Positions 49,747-59,970 of a DNA stretch of 64,000 bases are shown piece by piece. Origin of the DNA: Dyella dinghuensis (GTDB taxonomy: Bacteria; Pseudomonadota; Gammaproteobacteria; Xanthomonadales; Rhodanobacteraceae); the NCBI RefSeq assembly GCF_003977615.1, contig NZ_RYZR01000002.1:373214-437213 (forward strand). Direction: 5' to 3'. Under the pieces are notes generated by a model that worked only from the letters and a program-made list of their open reading frames with translations, searched no databases and was not told the DNA's origin. Each line of letters starts with the position of its first letter. The stretch's first letter is position 1. The position numbers and the translations under genes are program-made.

Positions 49747-52700
49747 ATGCGAAACCGCGCCATAAATGCGGACGCAATGCGGGCGTTTTGCGCGGTATTT
49801 GCTGCGCTGCTGACTCTGATGGCAGCGGGCCACGCCAATGCCCAACAGGTAGAAACGACGCTGCCCGCATCGCAACGCCAAACGATCAATCTCGCCGCGG
49901 GCATTCCACAATACATCGGGAACGCCAGCTCGGCGTCGAATGCACCGCAGAGCAACTGGTGGTTCGAGAACACTAATAATTCGACCGCTTACTCGACGAC
50001 TGGCTTCAACGAGAGCTCCGATACGAGTGCCACCTGGACGCAAGTGGGCTTGCCCTACGATGCAAACATCTCGCGCACCTTCATCAATCAGACCTCGGGT
50101 GGCGGGCAGGGGTCTTTGACGGGTAACTACAACTGGTACCGCCTGCATTTCAAAGTAGACCCGACCTATGCAGGCAAGAAATTCCTGCTGAATGTGCAAG
50201 GTTCGCACACCGGCATCCAGATCTTCATAAACGGTACGTTATTACCTGGCGTCAGCGCAGTCACTGCCGATGCGCAGGCGACCCACGTAGTGGGCTTCAT
50301 CCCGGTGGTTGTCGATCTGACGCCATACATCGTTGCGGATGGAAAAACAGACAACGTCATCGCCATCGACGTTTCGCGCGGTGCCTCATGGTTTGAGACG
50401 CCGAACTTTTCCGGCGCGTTTCGTTTCGGTCAGGCCATGGCGGGACTGTTCCGCAATGTGAAGCTCTACGTTACTAATCCCATTCATATCCCACCGAATG
50501 TTTATTCGAACCAGAAGACGTGGGGTACTTATGTCGGAACGGTGTCGGAGGTTCCTGCAGCGCAAGGCACGGCAAAGGCCGCGTCGGCCATCGTCGACGT
50601 GCAAACCAATGTGGTGAACGAGACATCGACGACGCAGCAAGTCACGTTGACGACGCAGATTGTCGATGCGCAGGGCAACGTTGTCGTCACGGCGCCACCG
50701 GTCACGCAGGCCGTGCCGGCGATGACGGCAAGCACGTTTCCGTCCGGCGCGACGCCGATGTTCGATCAGCAGATTACCGTACCCAATCCGACGTTGTGGT
50801 ATCCGAACAATGCGACCTGCGGAACGCCGCCGGTATTGTGCGGTTCGCCGTATCTGTACAAGGTCTACCACATCGTCAGCGTGAACGGCGTCGTAGTCGA
50901 TTCGACGCAGGACACCTTGGGCATTCGCACGATTACATGGGATGCGAATTTCCCTTACTTCAACGGTCACGCCGTCTATCTGTGGGGCGGTTCGGGTCGC
51001 TACGACTATCCCGGGCTTGGATCGTCGGTTCCCGACGAACAGGTATGGCGCGACATGGCGCAGATTGCGGCGCAGGGTGGCAACGTATGGCGTCCTGGGC
51101 ACTCCACCAGCAGTGAAGAGTTAGTGGCCGCTGCGGATGCTTACGGCATCATGATCGACCAGCCGAGCGGCGACGGCGAAGGTTACTGGAATGCGAGTTC
51201 CAATCCGACCGCTGACGATCTGCAGCTGAAGCAGGAGCTGCATCGCGACATGATCATCCGCGATCGCAGTCATCCTTCCGTTCTCGATTGGGAGCGTGAC
51301 AACGGCGGCATGAATCCGTTGCTTGCAACGGAGCTCGGAACGATCGAGACCACGTGGGACAACATTAATCCGCGCGGGAGTGCCGACCGTACATACAGTC
51401 CATCCTACGGTTTGATCGACGAATGCGATGGCGCAGGTTGCGAAGCCGGTAATAAACAGCAGAACCCGAACAATCCGGCATTTGGCGCCGAGTATTGGGA
51501 CAACATGGGCACCGGCCGTGGTCTCGCCTATGACTATGAACTCGCGTTTGCAGCGCCGTATCTCGACGATTGGCGCCGGGGAAGGGCGGCGAATGCGTTC
51601 GGCATGGCGCAATGGTATTTCGCCGAGTCGCCGGGCGAGGTAAGCCTGTGGGCCGAATATCAGAATCAACCGAACATGGTGAACTTCGTGCGTTCGCTGG
51701 GTTACTCCTCGACCGATGCGAATCGTTTTCCGCGATTGCTCTACTACATCTATCAGGCCAACTGGATTCCGTATTCGGTTCAACCGGTCGTTCACCTCGC
51801 GCATCACTGGAACCGTGCGTACGAATACACCGCAGGCACGCCGATTCAGGAAAACGCCTTCAGCAATTGCCCGGGCGTGCGTCTGCTCATCAATGGCGTT
51901 CCTGCTGATCCAGTTACCGGCACATTGCTTCAGGATCAGACGCCCAATCCGTGGAACGTCAATTCGAGCACGGATCTCACGCAGGGCACGACGGTTATGC
52001 CAGGGCAGGTTCACTGGATGGTGAACTGGGCGCCCGGCACCGTCACCGCACAATGTCTGGATGCGAATGGCAATCCGGTTGCCGGTGTGAGCGATACGCG
52101 CACGACGGCGGGAACGGAAAGCAAGATTGTTCTCAGCGTCGTTCCTGACGTGACCAAGCCGGACGGCACGAGCTTTCAGTGGACGGCCAACGGTTCGGAT
52201 GCCGCCTTTGTCGTGGCACAGGTCGAAGACGCCAATGGCAACCTCGTGCCGACAGCACAGGACAATGTCACGTTCTCCGTCTCCGGACCCGCCACCTATA
52301 TGGGCGGCACACAACAACTCGTTGCCGATCCATCGTGGACGAGCTATTACCAGGATGCCTTCTCGCAAGCGAACAGCACGGTGATCCAAGGCGTGCCTTA
52401 CGCCTTCTTCCACTCGCCCGGCGATCCGGAACTGAACTTCGAAGGCGGATTGCAGAAGATTGCTTTGCGCAGTACGTTTACGCCCGGCACCGTCACTGTG
52501 ACGGCGACTTCGCCCAATCTGCAAAGCGCCAGTGTTACGTTGACGTCGGTGGCACCGCCGGCTTCGTCGCAATCGCAATCGCAGACGCCCGTCATCATCG
52601 TTCCGCCCGTGAGCGTGGCGACGACATCAGGTTATACGGCGACGTTCAGTGTTGTCGCTTCCGGTTCGGGCACGCTCACGTATCAGTGGTCGGACGTAAA

Positions 52701-55700
52701 CGGTCCGATTGCCGGTGCAACGAGCGCCACATACACGACACCCGCGACGACTGCCGCCAATAACGGCGATACCTACACGGTGGCGATTACCAATAGCGTT
52801 GGCACCGTGACGTCGACACCTGTCACGCTCAGCGTCGATGCGCCCGCCAACGTGGTCATCACCACACAGCCTGCTTCACAAGTGGTGGTGGCTGGCGAGT
52901 CGGCCACACTGACGGTAGCTGCAACGGGTTCGCCCGCGATCACTTATCAGTGGTACCAGACGGGTTCGGGTGCCATTGCAGGAGCTAATCAAGCGTCGTA
53001 CACCACGCCGGTCTTTACCGCAGCGGGTAGTGCGAGTTTCTATGTCGTGGTTACCAATGACCTCGGCGCGGTTCAATCTTCAAACGCAGTGGTGACGGTC
53101 GGCGCTGCAACAGCCGTTTCGTTTGCCACGCAGCCTGCAAACGCCATTGCGCCGGTCAACGAGCCTGTTCAATTCACGGCCGTTGTTGCCGGGTCTCCGC
53201 CGTTTACGTATCAGTGGCAGTTCACGCCGCCGGGAGGCACTCCCACCATTCTCACCAGTGGCACGCAACAGTCGAATACGCTGACTTACACGGTTCCTGC
53301 GGTGAGCGCCGCGAACGTGGGCGCATACACCGTCACGGTGAACAATGACGCGGGCACGGCTGCCACCAGCAACGCAGCGCAAATCACGCTTGCGCCGCCG
53401 GGTGTCAATCTCGCGCTGAACACGTTGGCGACGTCAAGCAGTACGCAGAATGCGTGCAATGACGGAACGACAACGCCGCCGTACACGGGCACGGGATGCC
53501 TGGGGCCGGAAAACGCGGTCGACGGCAATCTGTCCACGCGTTGGGGTTCCGCAACGGCCGGCGCACCGCCTACGCCAGCCGTTCCCGGCGTCGATCCGTC
53601 GTGGTTGCAGATCGACCTGGGTTCGGCGCAGCCGTTCAATACCGTGATCATCAACTGGGAAAACGCGTATGCGACCCAGTATCAGATCCTGTATACCAAC
53701 GCCGATCCGGCAACCAATCCCACCTGGAACGTGGCGTACACGAACAACGCCGGTGCGGGTGGAACGGAAACGCTCAACTTCCCGACGGTCACCGGTCGTT
53801 ATATCCGGCTGCTGGGCATACAGCGCGCGACGCAGTATGGCTACTCGGTCTACGAGTTTCAGGTCTACAACGTGGCGCAATGTTGTACCGCAACGGATCG
53901 ATACACGGTCAATGCATCGACGCCCAATCTGGTGACGGATAACCTGACCGGTTTGACTTGGACGCGCACCGTGATGACCGACACGACGCCGGGTTCGCAG
54001 TTCACCGGCGTGAGTGCGCAGACGTATTGCGCGAGCATCAATATGCGTCTGCCCACGCAATCGGAAGCGTTCACCATCAGTGGTGTCAATAACAACACCA
54101 CCGCTTTTTCAGGAACGTGGAGTACGTGGACATCGACGGTCGATCCGAACGATTCCACGAAGACCGCGGTGGTGAGTTTCGACGGCACATCCAACTATCA
54201 GGTCACCAATAACTATCCCGGCGCCACATTGTGTGTATCGGGTACCGATGCTGGAACCGTACCTGTCATTACGGCGCAACCTGCCAATCAGGCTGTGGCT
54301 CTGGGACAACCAGCAACGTTCAACGTGACCGCGACCGGCCTTGGCACCTTGACCTACCAGTGGTCTGAAAACGGAACGGCTATTCCCGGCGCAACGTCGT
54401 CCAGTTACACCACACCGGCGACCGTGGCGATCAACAATGGCGCAGTCTTCAGCGTGGCGGTCAGCGATGTGTTTGGCACGACGATCAGTAACGCGGCCAC
54501 GCTCGCCGTACAACAGAACAGCTGCAACGCTGTTCCGGGTACACCCGGCACACTCGCTGCGGGCGCAAGCACCGCCAATCAGGTGAACCTGACGTGGGGC
54601 GCGAGCACGGCCGGAAGCGGCTGCACTATCGGCTACACCATCTATCGCAGCAACGTTGCCGGTTTCACACCGTCCAGCGCAAACCAGATTGCCACCACGG
54701 CTGGAACCACCTATTCGGATACCGGGGTGGCGGCTGCGGCTACTTACTACTACATCGTCGAAGCGACGGATGCGGCAGGCGCCTCGGCGGCTTCCAACAC
54801 AGCGACGGCAACGACGCCTGTCTCAACATGCACGACGAACTGCAGCAGTCCGGATGCGATCGCGATCAGTGCGGGTGGTCCTGCAGCCGGCTACTTCGCT
54901 GCCGATGAAGATTTCAATGGCGGTACGCCATCGGGTACCAATGCAACGATCAACATCAATGGCATCACCAATCCCGCACCGCAGTCGGTGTATCAGAATC
55001 AGCGCTTCGGCAACTTCACGTATACGCTTCCTGGTCTGACGCCAGGCGCAAATTACGTCGTGCGTCTGCACTTCGATGAATTCTATTGGACTCAAGCTGG
55101 GCAGCGCGTGTTCAACGTCAGCATCAACGGCACACAGGTGCTGAGCAACTTCGATATCTTCGCGGCCGCAGGCGGGCAGGGCATTGCAGTCGTCGAGCAG
55201 TTTGCGGCGACGGCCAATGCGCAGGGGCAGATCGTGCTCCAGTACGTCTCGGTCAAGGACAATGCCGCTGTCAACGGCATCGAAGTGCAAGCGGCGAGTG
55301 CGACCAATACGCCGCCCAATGCGCCGTCGAATCTGACCGCAACGGTGGCTTCTTCCAGTCAGATCAATCTGAGCTGGACGGGCTCGGCGTCGCCGGGAGT
55401 GATGTATACGGTGTTCCGTAATGGAACGGCGGTTGGCAATAGCCTGACCGGAACGACCTATAGCGATACCGGCCTTACATCCACGACCACTTACTCCTAC
55501 ACGGTCGAGGCGGTCGATTCGGCGGGTACGTCGATGGCGTCCAATACCGCTACCGCCACCACGTTCGATGTGAACTGCGCCTCGGGTTGTGGCTCGGATG
55601 TGCTTGCGATCAGTGCTGGCGGCACCGCAGCGGGTGACTATGCTGCTGACGAATATTTCAACGGCGGCGGTACGTCCGGCACGGGTTCGACGATCAATAC

Positions 55701-58044
55701 GTCCGGTGTGACGAATCCTGCGCCGCAATCGGTCTACCAGCATCAGCGTTCCGGCAACAACTTCGCCTACACGCTTCCGGGTCTGACCGCTGGCGCCAGC
55801 TACACCGTGCGTCTGCACTTCGACGAGTTCTATTGGACCAAGCCGGGGCAGCGAGTCTTCAACGTCGGCATCAACGGCACGCAGGTGCTGAGCAACTTCG
55901 ACATCATCGCGACCACCGGAGGCCAGGACATTGCCGTGGTCGAGCCCTTTACGGCGACGGCTAACGCACAAGGCCAGATCGAGCTGCAGTTCACCACGAT
56001 TACCGACAACGCCGAGATCAACGGCATCGAGGTCGTCTCCGCGCCGATCGCGTCACCGGGCAACCTGACGGCGGCATCCGCTTCCGCCAGTCAGATCAAT
56101 TTGAACTGGACGGCGTCGTCGGCGCCAGGCGTGGTCTACGACGTCTTCCGCAGCACGACGTCCGGCTTTACGCCTTCCAGCGCCAATCAAATTGGCACGG
56201 CAACGAGCACCAGCTATGCCGATACCGGCCTGACGGTGAACACGACGTACTACTACGTGGTGGAGGCTTCCAATACATCCGGCACGTCGGCGCCGACGGC
56301 GCAAGCCAGCGCCAGCACGATGGCGATTCCGCTTGCACCGACGAACCTGACGGCAACGGCTGCATCGTCCAGTGAAGTTGACTTGAGCTGGACTGCATCG
56401 GCGACGTCTGGTGTGACATACACCGTGATACGCAACGGTGTGCCCATCGTCAATGCCGTGACTGCAACGGCTTACAGCGATACCGGCTTGACCGCATCGA
56501 CCGCATACTCGTATGTCGTCGAAGCAGTCGATGCGGGTGGCACGTCTCCCGCTTCCAACACGGCCATCACGACGACACCGGCGTCAGGATCAGGTTCTGG
56601 CACGGTAACGGCACCGGTGATTACCACCGCGCCGGCAAGTCAAACCGTCACAATCGGACGCACGGCGACCTTCTCCGTGACAGCCAGCGGTGGTTCGCTG
56701 TCCTATCAGTGGTACAAGAACGGCGCCGCCGTTACGGGTGCTACCAGCGCGAGTTACACCACGCCGGGCACCACGTATCCCGATAACGCCAGCACTTTCA
56801 CCGTCTCGGTGAGCAACTCCGCCGGGTCGGCGACGTCGTCGGCCGCAACGTTGAACGTCAATCTTGCACCTGCGTACACGGTCGTTCCCGGCGTCATTGC
56901 CACCGATCTCAACAACAACACCGGCGGTGCATGGGCAGACAACCAGATCTACGTCGAAATCCTCGGCAACGATCCTGCCACCGGCGCGCTTTCGTGGGTT
57001 AACTACGACGGTACCGTCACGCCCGCCAATGTCGCGGACAACACGGCTGCCAACGCACTGGTCGCGCCGAACGGGCAGACGTATCCCAATTACGCGTTCA
57101 CGCTTGCCCAGGCCAACCATCAACTGTTGCTGCCGCCGCTGACATCTGGACGTATCTACATTTCGGAAGGCAGCCCGCTTTATATGTCGGTCATGGCTGG
57201 TGCGAACGGCGGCAACAACGGCTACGCCGGTCCCAATCCGCTCAACAACACCGATCCCAACATCAACGTCCACTACGACTGGTACGAGTTCACCTACGGC
57301 ACAAACGGCGGCATCTTTATCAACACGACGCAGGTCAATCAGTTCGGTTTGCCACTGCTGCTGGATGTGTGGGGAGCCAACGAGACCTATCACATGCAGG
57401 TAGGTATCAACGAGTCGATCGCCAACCTCGACCAGGAATACGTCAGCCAAACACCGGCCGCGTTCAACACACCGGCGCCCAGCAACTTGCGCATCCTCTC
57501 GCCTGCGGAAACTACCTTCAATGCCGGTGGAACCAACGGGACTTATTTCGATAGCTACATCGCAAGTGCATGGGCACAGTTCAGTGCCACGCCGCTGACG
57601 CTAACCCTCAATGGGCGCCAGTTCAGCGGCAGCGCTGCCGGATCGACCATCACCTTTACGGAGGTAAATCCCGCTGCGGCCAATGTCGGCGAGAGCTTCG
57701 TTGTGCAACAACCGTCCACGCAGGATGTACTGGAGTGTGCAGGCACGATGGCGAGCGGTGTTGCGGGAAGTTCGCCGCAGCAACAGGATGAGAACGCCAT
57801 ACAGCTGCAATTGGAAAATCAGATCTGCGCGGCGACGAATCGTGGCGTATTGCTTACCCCCGCGAATTGGGCGAAGGCGTCAACCTATTATCAGTCTTCA
57901 CCGGCGAACTTCTATTCGTGGTTCTGGCACCAACACTCGGTCAGTGGATTGGCATACGGTTTCTCGTATGACGACAACAACAACCAGAGCACCACGATCA
58001 CGACGCAACAACCGGAGCACATGGCATTCGGCATCGGCTGGTAA
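49747..58044 (+). CDS. giant secreted multidomain glycoside hydrolase (GH2 ... GH64-like)
   Basis: About 2765 residues from ATG 49747, with a signal peptide (cleavage after HANA, about 33). Domains in order, by eye: GH2 sugar-binding and Ig-like domains (about 50-380), GH2-type TIM barrel (390-690; candidate acids E516 in LDWERDNGG and E582 in GAEYWDN), linker domains, three Ig-like domains (947-1218; YQW signatures), F5/8C or CBM32 (1219-1377), a DUF1566-like segment (1379-1498; GLTWTRTVM, INMRLPTQSE), Ig (1499-1595), FN3 (1597-1693), malectin (1707-1852), FN3, malectin (1955-2100), two FN3, Ig (2285-2372) and a C-terminal GH64/thaumatin-like beta-1,3-glucanase domain (2373-2765; DWYEFTYGTNGGIFINTTQV). 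Probably attacks a mixed plant or fungal polysaccharide outside the cell. No sorting signal at the C-terminus. Domain limits are approximate. Confidence 0.85.
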   Translation: MRNRAINADAMRAFCAVFAALLTLMAAGHANAQQVETTLPASQRQTINLAAGIPQYIGNASSASNAPQSNWWFENTNNSTAYSTTGFNESSDTSATWTQVGLPYDANISRTFINQTSGGGQGSLTGNYNWYRLHFKVDPTYAGKKFLLNVQGSHTGIQIFINGTLLPGVSAVTADAQATHVVGFIPVVVDLTPYIVADGKTDNVIAIDVSRGASWFETPNFSGAFRFGQAMAGLFRNVKLYVTNPIHIPPNVYSNQKTWGTYVGTVSEVPAAQGTAKAASAIVDVQTNVVNETSTTQQVTLTTQIVDAQGNVVVTAPPVTQAVPAMTASTFPSGATPMFDQQITVPNPTLWYPNNATCGTPPVLCGSPYLYKVYHIVSVNGVVVDSTQDTLGIRTITWDANFPYFNGHAVYLWGGSGRYDYPGLGSSVPDEQVWRDMAQIAAQGGNVWRPGHSTSSEELVAAADAYGIMIDQPSGDGEGYWNASSNPTADDLQLKQELHRDMIIRDRSHPSVLDWERDNGGMNPLLATELGTIETTWDNINPRGSADRTYSPSYGLIDECDGAGCEAGNKQQNPNNPAFGAEYWDNMGTGRGLAYDYELAFAAPYLDDWRRGRAANAFGMAQWYFAESPGEVSLWAEYQNQPNMVNFVRSLGYSSTDANRFPRLLYYIYQANWIPYSVQPVVHLAHHWNRAYEYTAGTPIQENAFSNCPGVRLLINGVPADPVTGTLLQDQTPNPWNVNSSTDLTQGTTVMPGQVHWMVNWAPGTVTAQCLDANGNPVAGVSDTRTTAGTESKIVLSVVPDVTKPDGTSFQWTANGSDAAFVVAQVEDANGNLVPTAQDNVTFSVSGPATYMGGTQQLVADPSWTSYYQDAFSQANSTVIQGVPYAFFHSPGDPELNFEGGLQKIALRSTFTPGTVTVTATSPNLQSASVTLTSVAPPASSQSQSQTPVIIVPPVSVATTSGYTATFSVVASGSGTLTYQWSDVNGPIAGATSATYTTPATTAANNGDTYTVAITNSVGTVTSTPVTLSVDAPANVVITTQPASQVVVAGESATLTVAATGSPAITYQWYQTGSGAIAGANQASYTTPVFTAAGSASFYVVVTNDLGAVQSSNAVVTVGAATAVSFATQPANAIAPVNEPVQFTAVVAGSPPFTYQWQFTPPGGTPTILTSGTQQSNTLTYTVPAVSAANVGAYTVTVNNDAGTAATSNAAQITLAPPGVNLALNTLATSSSTQNACNDGTTTPPYTGTGCLGPENAVDGNLSTRWGSATAGAPPTPAVPGVDPSWLQIDLGSAQPFNTVIINWENAYATQYQILYTNADPATNPTWNVAYTNNAGAGGTETLNFPTVTGRYIRLLGIQRATQYGYSVYEFQVYNVAQCCTATDRYTVNASTPNLVTDNLTGLTWTRTVMTDTTPGSQFTGVSAQTYCASINMRLPTQSEAFTISGVNNNTTAFSGTWSTWTSTVDPNDSTKTAVVSFDGTSNYQVTNNYPGATLCVSGTDAGTVPVITAQPANQAVALGQPATFNVTATGLGTLTYQWSENGTAIPGATSSSYTTPATVAINNGAVFSVAVSDVFGTTISNAATLAVQQNSCNAVPGTPGTLAAGASTANQVNLTWGASTAGSGCTIGYTIYRSNVAGFTPSSANQIATTAGTTYSDTGVAAAATYYYIVEATDAAGASAASNTATATTPVSTCTTNCSSPDAIAISAGGPAAGYFAADEDFNGGTPSGTNATININGITNPAPQSVYQNQRFGNFTYTLPGLTPGANYVVRLHFDEFYWTQAGQRVFNVSINGTQVLSNFDIFAAAGGQGIAVVEQFAATANAQGQIVLQYVSVKDNAAVNGIEVQAASATNTPPNAPSNLTATVASSSQINLSWTGSASPGVMYTVFRNGTAVGNSLTGTTYSDTGLTSTTTYSYTVEAVDSAGTSMASNTATATTFDVNCASGCGSDVLAISAGGTAAGDYAADEYFNGGGTSGTGSTINTSGVTNPAPQSVYQHQRSGNNFAYTLPGLTAGASYTVRLHFDEFYWTKPGQRVFNVGINGTQVLSNFDIIATTGGQDIAVVEPFTATANAQGQIELQFTTITDNAEINGIEVVSAPIASPGNLTAASASASQINLNWTASSAPGVVYDVFRSTTSGFTPSSANQIGTATSTSYADTGLTVNTTYYYVVEASNTSGTSAPTAQASASTMAIPLAPTNLTATAASSSEVDLSWTASATSGVTYTVIRNGVPIVNAVTATAYSDTGLTASTAYSYVVEAVDAGGTSPASNTAITTTPASGSGSGTVTAPVITTAPASQTVTIGRTATFSVTASGGSLSYQWYKNGAAVTGATSASYTTPGTTYPDNASTFTVSVSNSAGSATSSAATLNVNLAPAYTVVPGVIATDLNNNTGGAWADNQIYVEILGNDPATGALSWVNYDGTVTPANVADNTAANALVAPNGQTYPNYAFTLAQANHQLLLPPLTSGRIYISEGSPLYMSVMAGANGGNNGYAGPNPLNNTDPNINVHYDWYEFTYGTNGGIFINTTQVNQFGLPLLLDVWGANETYHMQVGINESIANLDQEYVSQTPAAFNTPAPSNLRILSPAETTFNAGGTNGTYFDSYIASAWAQFSATPLTLTLNGRQFSGSAAGSTITFTEVNPAAANVGESFVVQQPSTQDVLECAGTMASGVAGSSPQQQDENAIQLQLENQICAATNRGVLLTPANWAKASTYYQSSPANFYSWFWHQHSVSGLAYGFSYDDNNNQSTTITTQQPEHMAFGIGW
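54865..56044 (+). repeat. duplicated malectin-FN3 cassette inside the giant hydrolase
   Basis: Two copies of a malectin-like module (starting 54865 and 55609) are offset by 744 bp, that is 248 residues, and share long identical stretches such as LHFDEFYWT, QRVFNV-INGTQVLSNFDI and NPAPQSVYQ. FN3 modules separate and follow them. An in-frame intragenic duplication is the simplest explanation. Confidence 0.8.
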
Positions 58045-58086: not shown

Positions 58087-58110
58087 GCCGACGCGAATCA
58101 GCGCGTCGGC
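58087..58110. terminator. hairpin between convergent hydrolase genes
   Basis: Perfect 9-bp stem GCCGACGCG/CGCGTCGGC with a 6-nt loop. It spans the stop codon of the fucosidase gene (58098) and lies 43 bp after the stop of the giant hydrolase. It may terminate both genes, but no T-run is seen on either side. Confidence 0.5.
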
Positions 58111-59942
58111 GATACCTCGACGGACGTGACGGTTACTGGAAGGCGGGTGCCCTGTTCGAACGGCGAGCGCGGCGTAAGCTCCAGCTGCATCGCGTAGGGA
58201 TGCGCCTTGCGGTCCCGGCGCACTTCGATTGTTTGGCTGGCAACGTTGTGGTTACCTGCAACGGTGCTTGCCGAGTTCATCGGATAGCGCTGGCCGTCCA
58301 CCCACAGATCCATCTGCGCGGGCTGAGGCAAAGGTGTGTAGCTGATGTTGACGGAGTAATTCGATGCTTTCGCATCAAGCTGCCACACCAGTTTGTAGAG
58401 CGTGGAGGGATCTTCGTAGCCCTCACCGTTGTAGTTGAGATAGTGCGCAGCCTGTGCAGGTTGCAGATGAAAGCTTCCGTCGTCCGCTGCCGCGATAGCC
58501 TGCGGCCGCACACGAAGCGTGCCCTTGAAGGGCAGCACTACAACTGGCATGAAAGAATCGACATTCGTGCCATCGGAATCCGCTACCGGCCAATGCGGCA
58601 GACGATCCAATGGAATGCTTACGCCATCGGCATCGTGATGAATTTCAACGGTGTTCTCAGGCGACCCAAGTCGATACGCGCGGCCTAGCGCGGTGTCGGT
58701 CAATCCGGGTAGATGAAGCTGGTGGTCCGGAGGCATTTTTGTCACGAACAGATAGATCGCGTGAGGGCCTACCGTCGCATAGCCAAAGTCCAGCGCGGTG
58801 AACGGTTGTTTGCGCGTGCCGTAGATGGCATCGCCGTTACGCTGCAGCCACGCACCGATGCCATGAAGCACCTGCGCTTCGTAAGGCACCACAGAACCAT
58901 CGCCTTCCGGGCCGATATTGAGAATGTAGTTGCCGCCTTGGCTTACGACACGAACCAATCGTGTGATGTTCTCGCGAATCTTGCCTGGCAAATCCGTCCT
59001 GGGCTGCCAGGAGCGATAACCCCATGTTTCCGGAAACATCGAAGCCGGCGCTTGCCACGGCAATTCCACCGAGACATCGGGCTCGCTGTTGTCGCCCATC
59101 ACAGCGAAGTCGCCGCGATAGTTCCAAACGCGGCCTGAAATCATGGTTTGCGGTTGCAGCGCATGCACGGTTTGCGCGAAGTGCGTGCTTTGCGCTGGCG
59201 TAGGCTTACCCATATCAAACCAGATTTCGGCGATGGGCCCGTAGTGGCTCAACAGCTCCTTGAGCTGCGCCACATTGAATGCTTCCTGCCCAGGCGTGAT
59301 CGGATTGCTATTGCTTTCGATATACGTGTTTCCACCCGGATGATGCCAATCGATCGTCGAATAATAGACGCCGAACTTCAGGCCAGCGCGTGCGCAGGCA
59401 TCAGCGAGTTGTTTGACGATATCTTTGTGATAAGGCGTTCCATCGACCGCGTTATAAGGTGTTTGCGCGGTTTGGAACAAATTGAACCCATCGTGGTGCT
59501 TGGCGGTGATAACGATGAACTTCATGCCTGCGGCCTTGGCGAGGGCGGCAATCGCATCGGCATCGAAATTCACCGGATCGAAGCGTTTTGCCAACGCGTC
59601 GTAATCTTTTGGCGGTATCGGCGCATTGGCGAGGATCTGCTCGCTATAGCCGTTGTCCACGCGATGGCCGTTCCACACGCCGCCAGCCATGGAATACAGG
59701 CCAAAGTGGATGAACATGCCGAACTTGCGGTCCTGCCATGCATCGATCGTGGCGGTGCTCGGGCCAGCACCTGGAGGCGGTTGGGGCTGATCCAGCGGGC
59801 GCTGCGTCCCGACAGGGACATTGGAACCTTGTGCAGACAAGGATGTAACCCAAATGCCTTGCGACCCCACGATCATGCCGATCAGCAGACACAGCATGGT
59901 TCGCTTTCCCGCGGACCCATTCTTCATACGCTTTGCACCCAT
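58098..59942 (-). CDS. GH29 alpha-L-fucosidase, secreted
   Basis: Exo-hydrolase releasing alpha-linked L-fucose by a retaining mechanism. 614 residues from ATG 59942, with a signal peptide (MLCLLIGMIVGSQGIW, cleavage after LSAQ or nearby). The catalytic barrel begins WQDRKFGMFIHFGLYSM; the nucleophile is D243 in AEIWFDMG. A C-terminal carbohydrate-binding beta-sandwich (about residues 470-614) follows. It converges on the giant hydrolase; both probably act on the same polysaccharide. An inverted repeat at 59971-59987 upstream may be its operator. Residue numbers shift if GTG 59948 or ATG 59927 is the start. Confidence 0.92.
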   Translation of the reverse strand: MGAKRMKNGSAGKRTMLCLLIGMIVGSQGIWVTSLSAQGSNVPVGTQRPLDQPQPPPGAGPSTATIDAWQDRKFGMFIHFGLYSMAGGVWNGHRVDNGYSEQILANAPIPPKDYDALAKRFDPVNFDADAIAALAKAAGMKFIVITAKHHDGFNLFQTAQTPYNAVDGTPYHKDIVKQLADACARAGLKFGVYYSTIDWHHPGGNTYIESNSNPITPGQEAFNVAQLKELLSHYGPIAEIWFDMGKPTPAQSTHFAQTVHALQPQTMISGRVWNYRGDFAVMGDNSEPDVSVELPWQAPASMFPETWGYRSWQPRTDLPGKIRENITRLVRVVSQGGNYILNIGPEGDGSVVPYEAQVLHGIGAWLQRNGDAIYGTRKQPFTALDFGYATVGPHAIYLFVTKMPPDHQLHLPGLTDTALGRAYRLGSPENTVEIHHDADGVSIPLDRLPHWPVADSDGTNVDSFMPVVVLPFKGTLRVRPQAIAAADDGSFHLQPAQAAHYLNYNGEGYEDPSTLYKLVWQLDAKASNYSVNISYTPLPQPAQMDLWVDGQRYPMNSASTVAGNHNVASQTIEVRRDRKAHPYAMQLELTPRSPFEQGTRLPVTVTSVEVSPTR

Positions 59943-59970
59943 TGCCACACTCTTTGATCAAACTCGCTAT

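Follow-up and report, generated by a model that had tools for sequence, protein, structure and literature searches.

A giant, probably secreted GH2–GH64 protein of Dyella and other bacteria with non-canonical active-site residues

The window analyzed here is a 64,000-nucleotide stretch of the Dyella dinghuensis genome (contig NZ_RYZR01000002.1, positions 373,214 to 437,213). The host belongs to the family Rhodanobacteraceae, and its 4.2-Mb genome is assembled in 12 contigs. A single gene on the forward strand (49747..58044) encodes a protein of 2765 residues, and translation gave 2765 codons without interruption between position 49747 and the stop codon, whose last base is 58044. In a Pfam scan of the whole protein, the N-terminus holds the GH2 parts and the C-terminus a complete GH64 domain, and between them lie Ig-like, CBM32-like, Lcl_C-like, FN3, and malectin modules. 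An approximate signal peptide (49747..49842, +) was read by eye from the translation, a hydrophobic N-terminal stretch was also seen by eye in all 12 Dyella/Rhodanobacter orthologs (out of 14) whose N-termini were inspected, and secretion is probable. A preliminary description of this DNA had read the locus as one uninterrupted frame of about 2765 residues with a signal peptide, a GH2-like N-terminal part, a dozen Ig, FN3, F5/8C, and malectin modules, and a GH64-like C-terminal domain; all of these elements were recovered, and Pfam puts neither end outside GH2 or GH64. The base composition of the gene is 0.593 versus 0.587 in the remainder of the window and gives no sign of recent arrival. In its own genome, the sole GH64 match is the window gene itself. 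No paper on a GH2–GH64 protein was found in the open-access literature searched, where a search for the exact name returned zero records.

The GH2-type region comprises residues 75–960 (49969..52626, +), as delimited by Pfam and by the match to PDB GH2 chains, the best of which is 6hpd (residues 93–935, E 3.5e-45). The Pfam models Glyco_hydro_2 (residues 278–394, E 1.7e-12) and GH2 TIM-barrel (residues 404–519, E 1.1e-6, covering profile positions 9–134 of 302) scored above their cut-offs, as did DUF4982 (698–779) and Glyco_hydro2_C5 (811–855). The GH2 sugar-binding model (residues 127–245) reached 21.2 bits against a cut-off of 28. The sugar-binding, Ig-like, and TIM-barrel domains of GH2 follow one another in the correct order, the first of them under its cut-off.

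Between the two ends, Pfam finds a total of 12–13 accessory modules on the same strand: four to five Ig-like, four FN3, two malectin, one F5/8C, and one Lcl_C-like. The series starts with two to three Ig-like modules (52594..53421), followed by the F5/8C (CBM32-like) module (53470..53856), which matches PDB 4zy9 with an E value of 2.8e-24, and the Lcl_C-like module (53929..54237), which scored 36.2 bits when the slice was scanned alone (cut-off 34.9) and 28.6 bits in the whole-protein scan. Next come an Ig-like module (54262..54438), the first FN3-like module (54544..54807; 20.8 bits, under the cut-off of 25), malectin module 1 (54859..55236; E 8.8e-24), an FN3 module (55321..55557), malectin module 2 (55600..56010; E 3.7e-25), two further FN3 modules (56053..56310 and 56335..56568), and a last Ig-like module (56614..56859). 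The copies at loci L101 and L130 likewise run from GH2 through Ig, F5/8C, Lcl_C-like, and variable modules to GH64, and L137 is compatible with the same GH2-to-GH64 order among the best stretches listed; Lcl_C is under the cut-off in all three. The variable part consists of malectin and FN3 modules in the window and L101 and of repeated F5/8C modules in L137 and L130.

The GH64 domain occupies residues 2379–2765 (56881..58041, +). Pfam Glyco_hydro_64 (PF16483) covers residues 2385–2761 and profile positions 4–368 of 370 (E 2.9e-78), and the closest PDB chains carry the names GH64 or β-1,3-glucanase. At the proton-donor position (LPHase Glu154), E2514 (57286..57288, +) is kept, with Glu in 112 of 112 aligned rows. 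At the general-base position (LPHase Asp170), the window has N2531 (57337..57339, +), and Asn occurs there throughout the Dyella/Rhodanobacter clade. The primary source for the two LPHase residues is reportedly Wu et al. 2009. The residue that follows the NTTQV motif is Asn in the window versus Asp in six PDB GH64 chains, as far as these are aligned (five shown). The GH64 alignment had 128 rows, of which 112 with at least 250 residues were kept, and removal of identical sequences left 89 distinct domains. The general-base position is Asn in 15 of these, a set identical with the 15 distinct Dyella/Rhodanobacter copies; the remaining 74, including 16 stand-alone GH64s, have Asp. The Asp is also kept in L099 and L101 (Acidobacteriaceae ZG23-2), the closest copies from Acidobacteriaceae, and one change on the GH64 tree explains the replacement by Asn. 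According to PMC4758615, LPHase catalysis proceeds via Glu154 and Asp170, and PMC8394091 describes the GH64 Asp as the nucleophile or base and the Glu as the proton donor. The GH64 domain of the Dyella/Rhodanobacter lineage, judged from these residues, is probably slow or binds glucan only. An inactive GH64 mutant retains two laminarihexaose chains in its groove, according to PMC7915573, so that binding without cutting would be a reasonable end state. In the inverting hydrolase PcCel45A, an Asn can act as the base (PMC5829257), and the Dyella GH64 may therefore still cut.

The GH2 alignment had 125 rows; 118 with at least 500 residues were kept, and 95 distinct sequences remained after identical ones were removed, one of them being the canonical GH2 at L172. 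The acid/base of GH2 enzymes is the Glu of an N–E motif. The Asn is present in the window protein (Asn519) and in all 95 distinct sequences, and the next position holds Gly (G520; 51304..51306, +), with Gly in 90, Ala in 3, Ser in 1, and Glu in 1, the last being L172. The canonical acid/base Glu is thus kept in none of the 94 distinct subfamily sequences. In the alignment, the window segment rshpsvldwerdng falls on RNNPSVIMWSIGNE of 9bey, which ends in WSIGNE, and the Gly stands opposite the acid/base Glu. As a control, WSIGNE was found in 11 of 12 ordinary GH2 loci of the same bacterial family; the script detected no motif in the twelfth (L193). E582 (51490..51492, +) lies at what we take to be the nucleophile position, as placed by sequence alignment; it is Glu in 95 of 95 distinct sequences. 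Three further acidic positions characterize the subfamily: E478 (51178..51180, +; Glu in 94 of 95, with a gap in L172), E516 in a W–E motif (51292..51294, +; Glu in 94 of 95, with Ser in L172), and E566 (51442..51444, +; Glu in 76, Asp in 18, and Ile in L172). Where the usual Glu at 520 is lost, three acidic positions are thus gained. The named loci described below were fetched with two peptide patterns, one of them QPSGDGE[GN], so D476 and E478 were partly selected for in that set; both residues are also present in all 35 regions that a plain protein search retrieved. An alignment read by eye gives 6hpd a Glu at each of the positions matching 478, 516, 566, and 582 and a Trp at the one matching 520. 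The altered GH2 site has thus been seen in a solved structure before and is less novel for that. Neither a catalytic role of the altered pattern nor an assay of any 6hpd relative was found in the open-access literature searched.

Single ORFs comparable to the window gene (2146–2826 residues, stop to stop) were read in 35 regions, which come from 33 genomes of the host family besides the window's own. Among the 233 genomes of this family searched at E 0.001, a GH64 match was present in 45 and a GH2 match in 56, many of which are ordinary separate enzymes. In the window's genus, 13 of the 16 genomes, its own among them, have long single ORFs with both ends, and such ORFs also occur in genera g14, g16 (Luteibacter), and g22 (Rhodanobacter). 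The named loci, fetched with the two peptide patterns, number 79 and come from the best 80 of 84 hits. GH2 and GH64 are in one ORF in 59 of them, a separate GH64-type ORF lies within the locus in seven (Pfam confirms GH64 in five weak scorers), the GH2 ORF is cut by the contig end in four, and no GH64 was seen in nine. Counted as fused are L107, which runs off its contig and has a weak and split GH64 match, and L168, whose GH2 part is spread over two frames; L129, counted as having a separate GH64, has two overlapping frames. Fused copies occur in Acidobacteriaceae, Rhodanobacteraceae, Burkholderiaceae, Chitinibacteraceae, Azospirillaceae, and one alphaproteobacterial MAG, and GH2 copies without a fused GH64 also occur in one Myxococcota and one Fibrobacterota record. 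In a phylum sample, the GH2 profile at E 1e-40 matched 2 of 398 genomes, namely the window's and G464, and the G464 matches (L172 and L173) are ordinary GH2s with the motifs WSVGNE and WSIGNE. The plasmid collection yielded matches to the GH2 part in 7 of 72,556 records, six at 48–77% (one Granulicella and five Paraburkholderia) and a Hymenobacter GalA at 27%. The distribution of the GH2 subfamily is patchy. An assembly artifact joining two genes was ruled out, because comparable single ORFs recur in the 33 other family genomes and the 59 named loci, and the protein is a family and not a single-strain chimera. One Fibrobacterota MAG contains many subfamily GH2 copies (L156, L158, L161, L163, L165, and L169), some in tandem; position 520 is Ala or Ser in some of them, and a GH64-type ORF lies near L161 and L163.

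Eight neighbors of the window gene were compared by tblastn with 114 loci, which are the 35 regions and the 79 named loci from the best 80 of 84 hits and partly represent the same contigs. Four of the eight were absent from all 114 loci. An AhpC-type neighbor was found in one, and a GGDEF protein and an α-l-fucosidase in two each, each pair being one contig held twice. A conserved operon in Dyella was mostly rejected, since the window neighbors rarely recur in these loci. The fucosidase (PF01120, E 1.5e-72; 58098-59948, −) stands tail to tail with the giant gene and recurs only at L052/L114 among the 114 loci. The L114 record (G082) is titled Candidatus Eremiobacteraeota and carries a Dyella-type copy with the same fucosidase; the genome collection assigns it to the window's genus, and the title looks wrong. 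The PilT-type ATPase neighbor was matched in 20 of the 114 loci. Three of these matches are true relatives at 86–87% (L044, L045, and L096, the last two from one contig), and the true PilT neighbor recurs in two other Dyella. The remaining 17 matches cover 127–141 residues of GspE genes and led to the finding of type II secretion system (T2SS) genes at the loci.

T2SS (gsp) genes with at least 60% identity to those of L137 or L145 lie in the fetched flanks of 19 of the 79 named loci (from the best 80 of 84 hits). The linked loci belong to Burkholderiaceae, Nitrospirillum, one alphaproteobacterial MAG, and one Stenotrophomonas MAG; the evidence is partial at L151 (secretin only) and L162 (only part of GspF). 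Together with Scleromatobacter L136, these groups comprise 22 loci, and three are unlinked: L136, L142 (an 8.7-kb contig), and L166, the second Pandoraea anhela copy, whose counterpart L152 is linked. At L181, gspG, lspF, and GspE/PulE directly follow the giant gene. Both L147 and L181 have T2SS genes and no GH64, which indicates that the linkage goes with the GH2 end and that GH64 is dispensable in some lineages. At L145:1119-8839 (−), the secretin has TPR and STN parts and the GspE shares 38% identity with the nearest one of Dyella; this T2SS may be a distinct subtype. A tryptophan halogenase gene (E 1e-181) lies upstream of the giant gene in an alphaproteobacterial MAG (L159:2699-4243, +). 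No T2SS genes near the giant gene were found in the fetched flanks of the Dyella loci. In the window's own genome, a secretin and a GspE-like ATPase are encoded within about 11 kb on contig C8, and the locus-linked T2SS GspE is 38% identical to the best GspE-like protein of this Dyella; this low identity and the missing linkage count against T2SS release there. With these two components at hand, T2SS is a possible export route in Dyella.

Quick trees were built on chosen rows (68 of 83 for GH2 and 62 of 73 for GH64), omitting near-duplicates along with some rows of Fibrobacterota, Pandoraea, and Nitrospirillum. In the GH2 tree, the Dyella/Rhodanobacter sequences form a clade (SH-aLRT 99), which is joined successively by L101 (90), L099 (99), and rows of the Edaphobacter type (99), each of them from Acidobacteriaceae; they lie far from Luteibacter, their family relatives. 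The GH2 part of the window is 87% identical to L099, 85% to L101, and 49–55% to the Luteibacter copies. In the GH64 tree, L101 stands beside Dyella (99) and L099 elsewhere within Acidobacteriaceae; in some genomes, the two ends may therefore have separate histories. The Granulicella tundricola plasmid pACIX902 (L180) carries a copy of the gene near an IS5 transposase, with the GH64 Asp and the GH2 N–G, and thereby offers a possible route of gene transfer. Within the Dyella/Rhodanobacter clade, the median dN/dS is 0.063 for GH2, 0.128 for the middle part, and 0.086 for GH64 (105 pairs each); the GH64 domain with the Asn is thus still under purifying selection. The Luteibacter values (0.243, 0.378, and 0.190) mix paralogues and were set aside. 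The Gly at the GH2 acid/base position, the Asn at the GH64 base, and the nesting of the Dyella gene in Acidobacteriaceae with T2SS linkage elsewhere go beyond the preliminary description. The architecture is more ordinary and the chemistry is odder than that first reading held. The combination that it took for an unusual one-off recurs as a fusion in the named loci counted above, and its tethered two-enzyme protein stands as two domains in one polypeptide; that both are ordinary enzymes is not supported as stated, given the missing acid/base Glu in the GH2 subfamily and the missing base Asp in the lineage's GH64. Of its composite polysaccharide target, a β-1,3-glucan-containing one is plausible.

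The explanation that we consider best overall, and to which we give about an even chance, is a horizontally spread secreted protein acting on or gripping glycan walls rich in β-1,3-glucan, with a non-canonical GH2 and a lineage-specific change of the GH64 base. We infer its secretion route in Dyella, its substrates, its activity, and the identity of its GH2 acid as follows. The giant protein would be exported by Sec and then most likely released by the T2SS. The C-terminal GH64 domain may dock into helical β-1,3-glucan, and the CBM32-like and malectin modules may grip neighboring sugars. The N-terminal GH2-type domain would attack another glycan of the wall through a retaining mechanism that uses E582; it still has the nucleophile Glu, and its acid is most likely relocated to E478, E516, or E566. 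The gene would have moved from Acidobacteriaceae to the Dyella/Rhodanobacter lineage, where the GH64 base Asp was presumably replaced by Asn afterwards. A bolder version, tentative and rather doubtful, holds that the whole GH2 subfamily moved its catalytic acid: the N–E Glu would have been lost, one of the gained residues E478, E516, and E566 would have taken over with a different chemistry inside clan GH-A, the gene would have traveled between phyla as one unit with GH64, and the Dyella GH64 would be a naturally occurring variant with an Asn base, as in GH45 subfamily C.

The substrate assignment comes from family resemblance, and plant callose or bacterial glucans would fit equally. Hosts of the family live in soil and peat and include chitin degraders; these habitats and the closeness of the F5/8C module to glucanase and chitosanase discoidin domains favor fungal walls. 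A weak fungal link is also given by PMC11497827, which counts Luteibacter and Burkholderia as dominant among the organisms that decompose fungal necromass. Against the fungal-wall reading stands a secreted GH64 protein of the chitin degrader Andreprevotia ripae, which is not known to be a member of the giant family: its abundance was low and did not rise on chitin (PMC8802321). It is quite improbable that the target is an exopolysaccharide of the bacterium itself or of a neighbor and not a fungal or plant wall. On pACIX902, capsule assembly Wzi and glycosyltransferase genes were observed beyond the IS5 transposase downstream of the giant gene. This context would suit such a target but comes from one locus, and glucan or chitosan is what the GH64 domain and the module of chitosanase type suggest.

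Two further alternatives concern the activity of the ends. Both could hydrolyze as in an ordinary bifunctional enzyme, the GH2 domain via another acidic residue and the GH64 domain with its Asn base in the imidic form proposed for GH45 subfamily C. The conserved surroundings of the active sites and the purifying selection on GH2 and GH64 are what such an enzyme would show, PcCel45A provides the precedent for the Asn base (PMC5829257), and the PDB gives the name β-galactosidase to 6hpd, whose GH2 pattern is the same. However, the other 74 distinct GH64 domains, 16 of them stand-alone, all have the base Asp, and two papers call this Asp catalytic (PMC4758615 and PMC8394091); we regard this alternative as rather unlikely. 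If both ends were instead binding domains, the protein would be an adhesin or scaffold on β-glucan surfaces, in keeping with the canonical acid/base missing from the GH2 subfamily, the base missing from the Dyella GH64, and the 12–13 accessory modules. A pure binding domain need not keep the GH2 nucleophile Glu, which is present in all 95 distinct sequences, and most relatives keep the full GH64 pair, so that a double pseudo-enzyme appears improbable. The preferred reading, a wall-directed protein with a non-canonical GH2 and an altered GH64 base, describes a giant secreted protein widely shared by mostly soil bacteria, in which an active-site rule is broken in GH2, and in one lineage in GH64 too, while purifying selection stays strong. 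An active protein would illustrate how the acid/base can be replaced in a textbook glycosidase family, and the automatic names (β-galactosidase and glucanase) would then be misleading as to mechanism. Having spread between Acidobacteriota and Pseudomonadota, and being paired with T2SS in some lineages, the protein offers a testable system for bacterial action on β-glucan-rich walls.

With the GH64 endo-β-1,3-glucanases of known structure (PDB 9vp9, 5h4e, 5h9x, and 3gd0, the last being LPHase), the window protein shares the full-length domain and the proton-donor Glu. Its lineage differs from them by the Asn in place of the general-base Asp, and its domain is the tail of a 2765-residue protein. 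The single F5/8C module has its best PDB matches in discoidin domains named glucanase or chitosanase (4zy9 and 2rv9); this comparison covers the module only, and the matched chains lack the remainder of those proteins. The GalA/GalB-type GH2 β-galactosidases (NCBIfam NF041462 and NF041463; PDB 7cwd, 4ypj, and 9bey) are related to the window protein by profile, but the latter scores 220.8 bits against the GalA cut-off of 900 bits, and 9bey, unlike the window protein, closes the aligned motif with N–E. The nearest known counterpart of the GH2 end is 6hpd, which we take to be the Formosa agariphila P17_GH2 of the ulvan locus. It shares the Glu pattern of the window protein without a Glu at 520, whereas its chain has 990 residues and no GH64 part.
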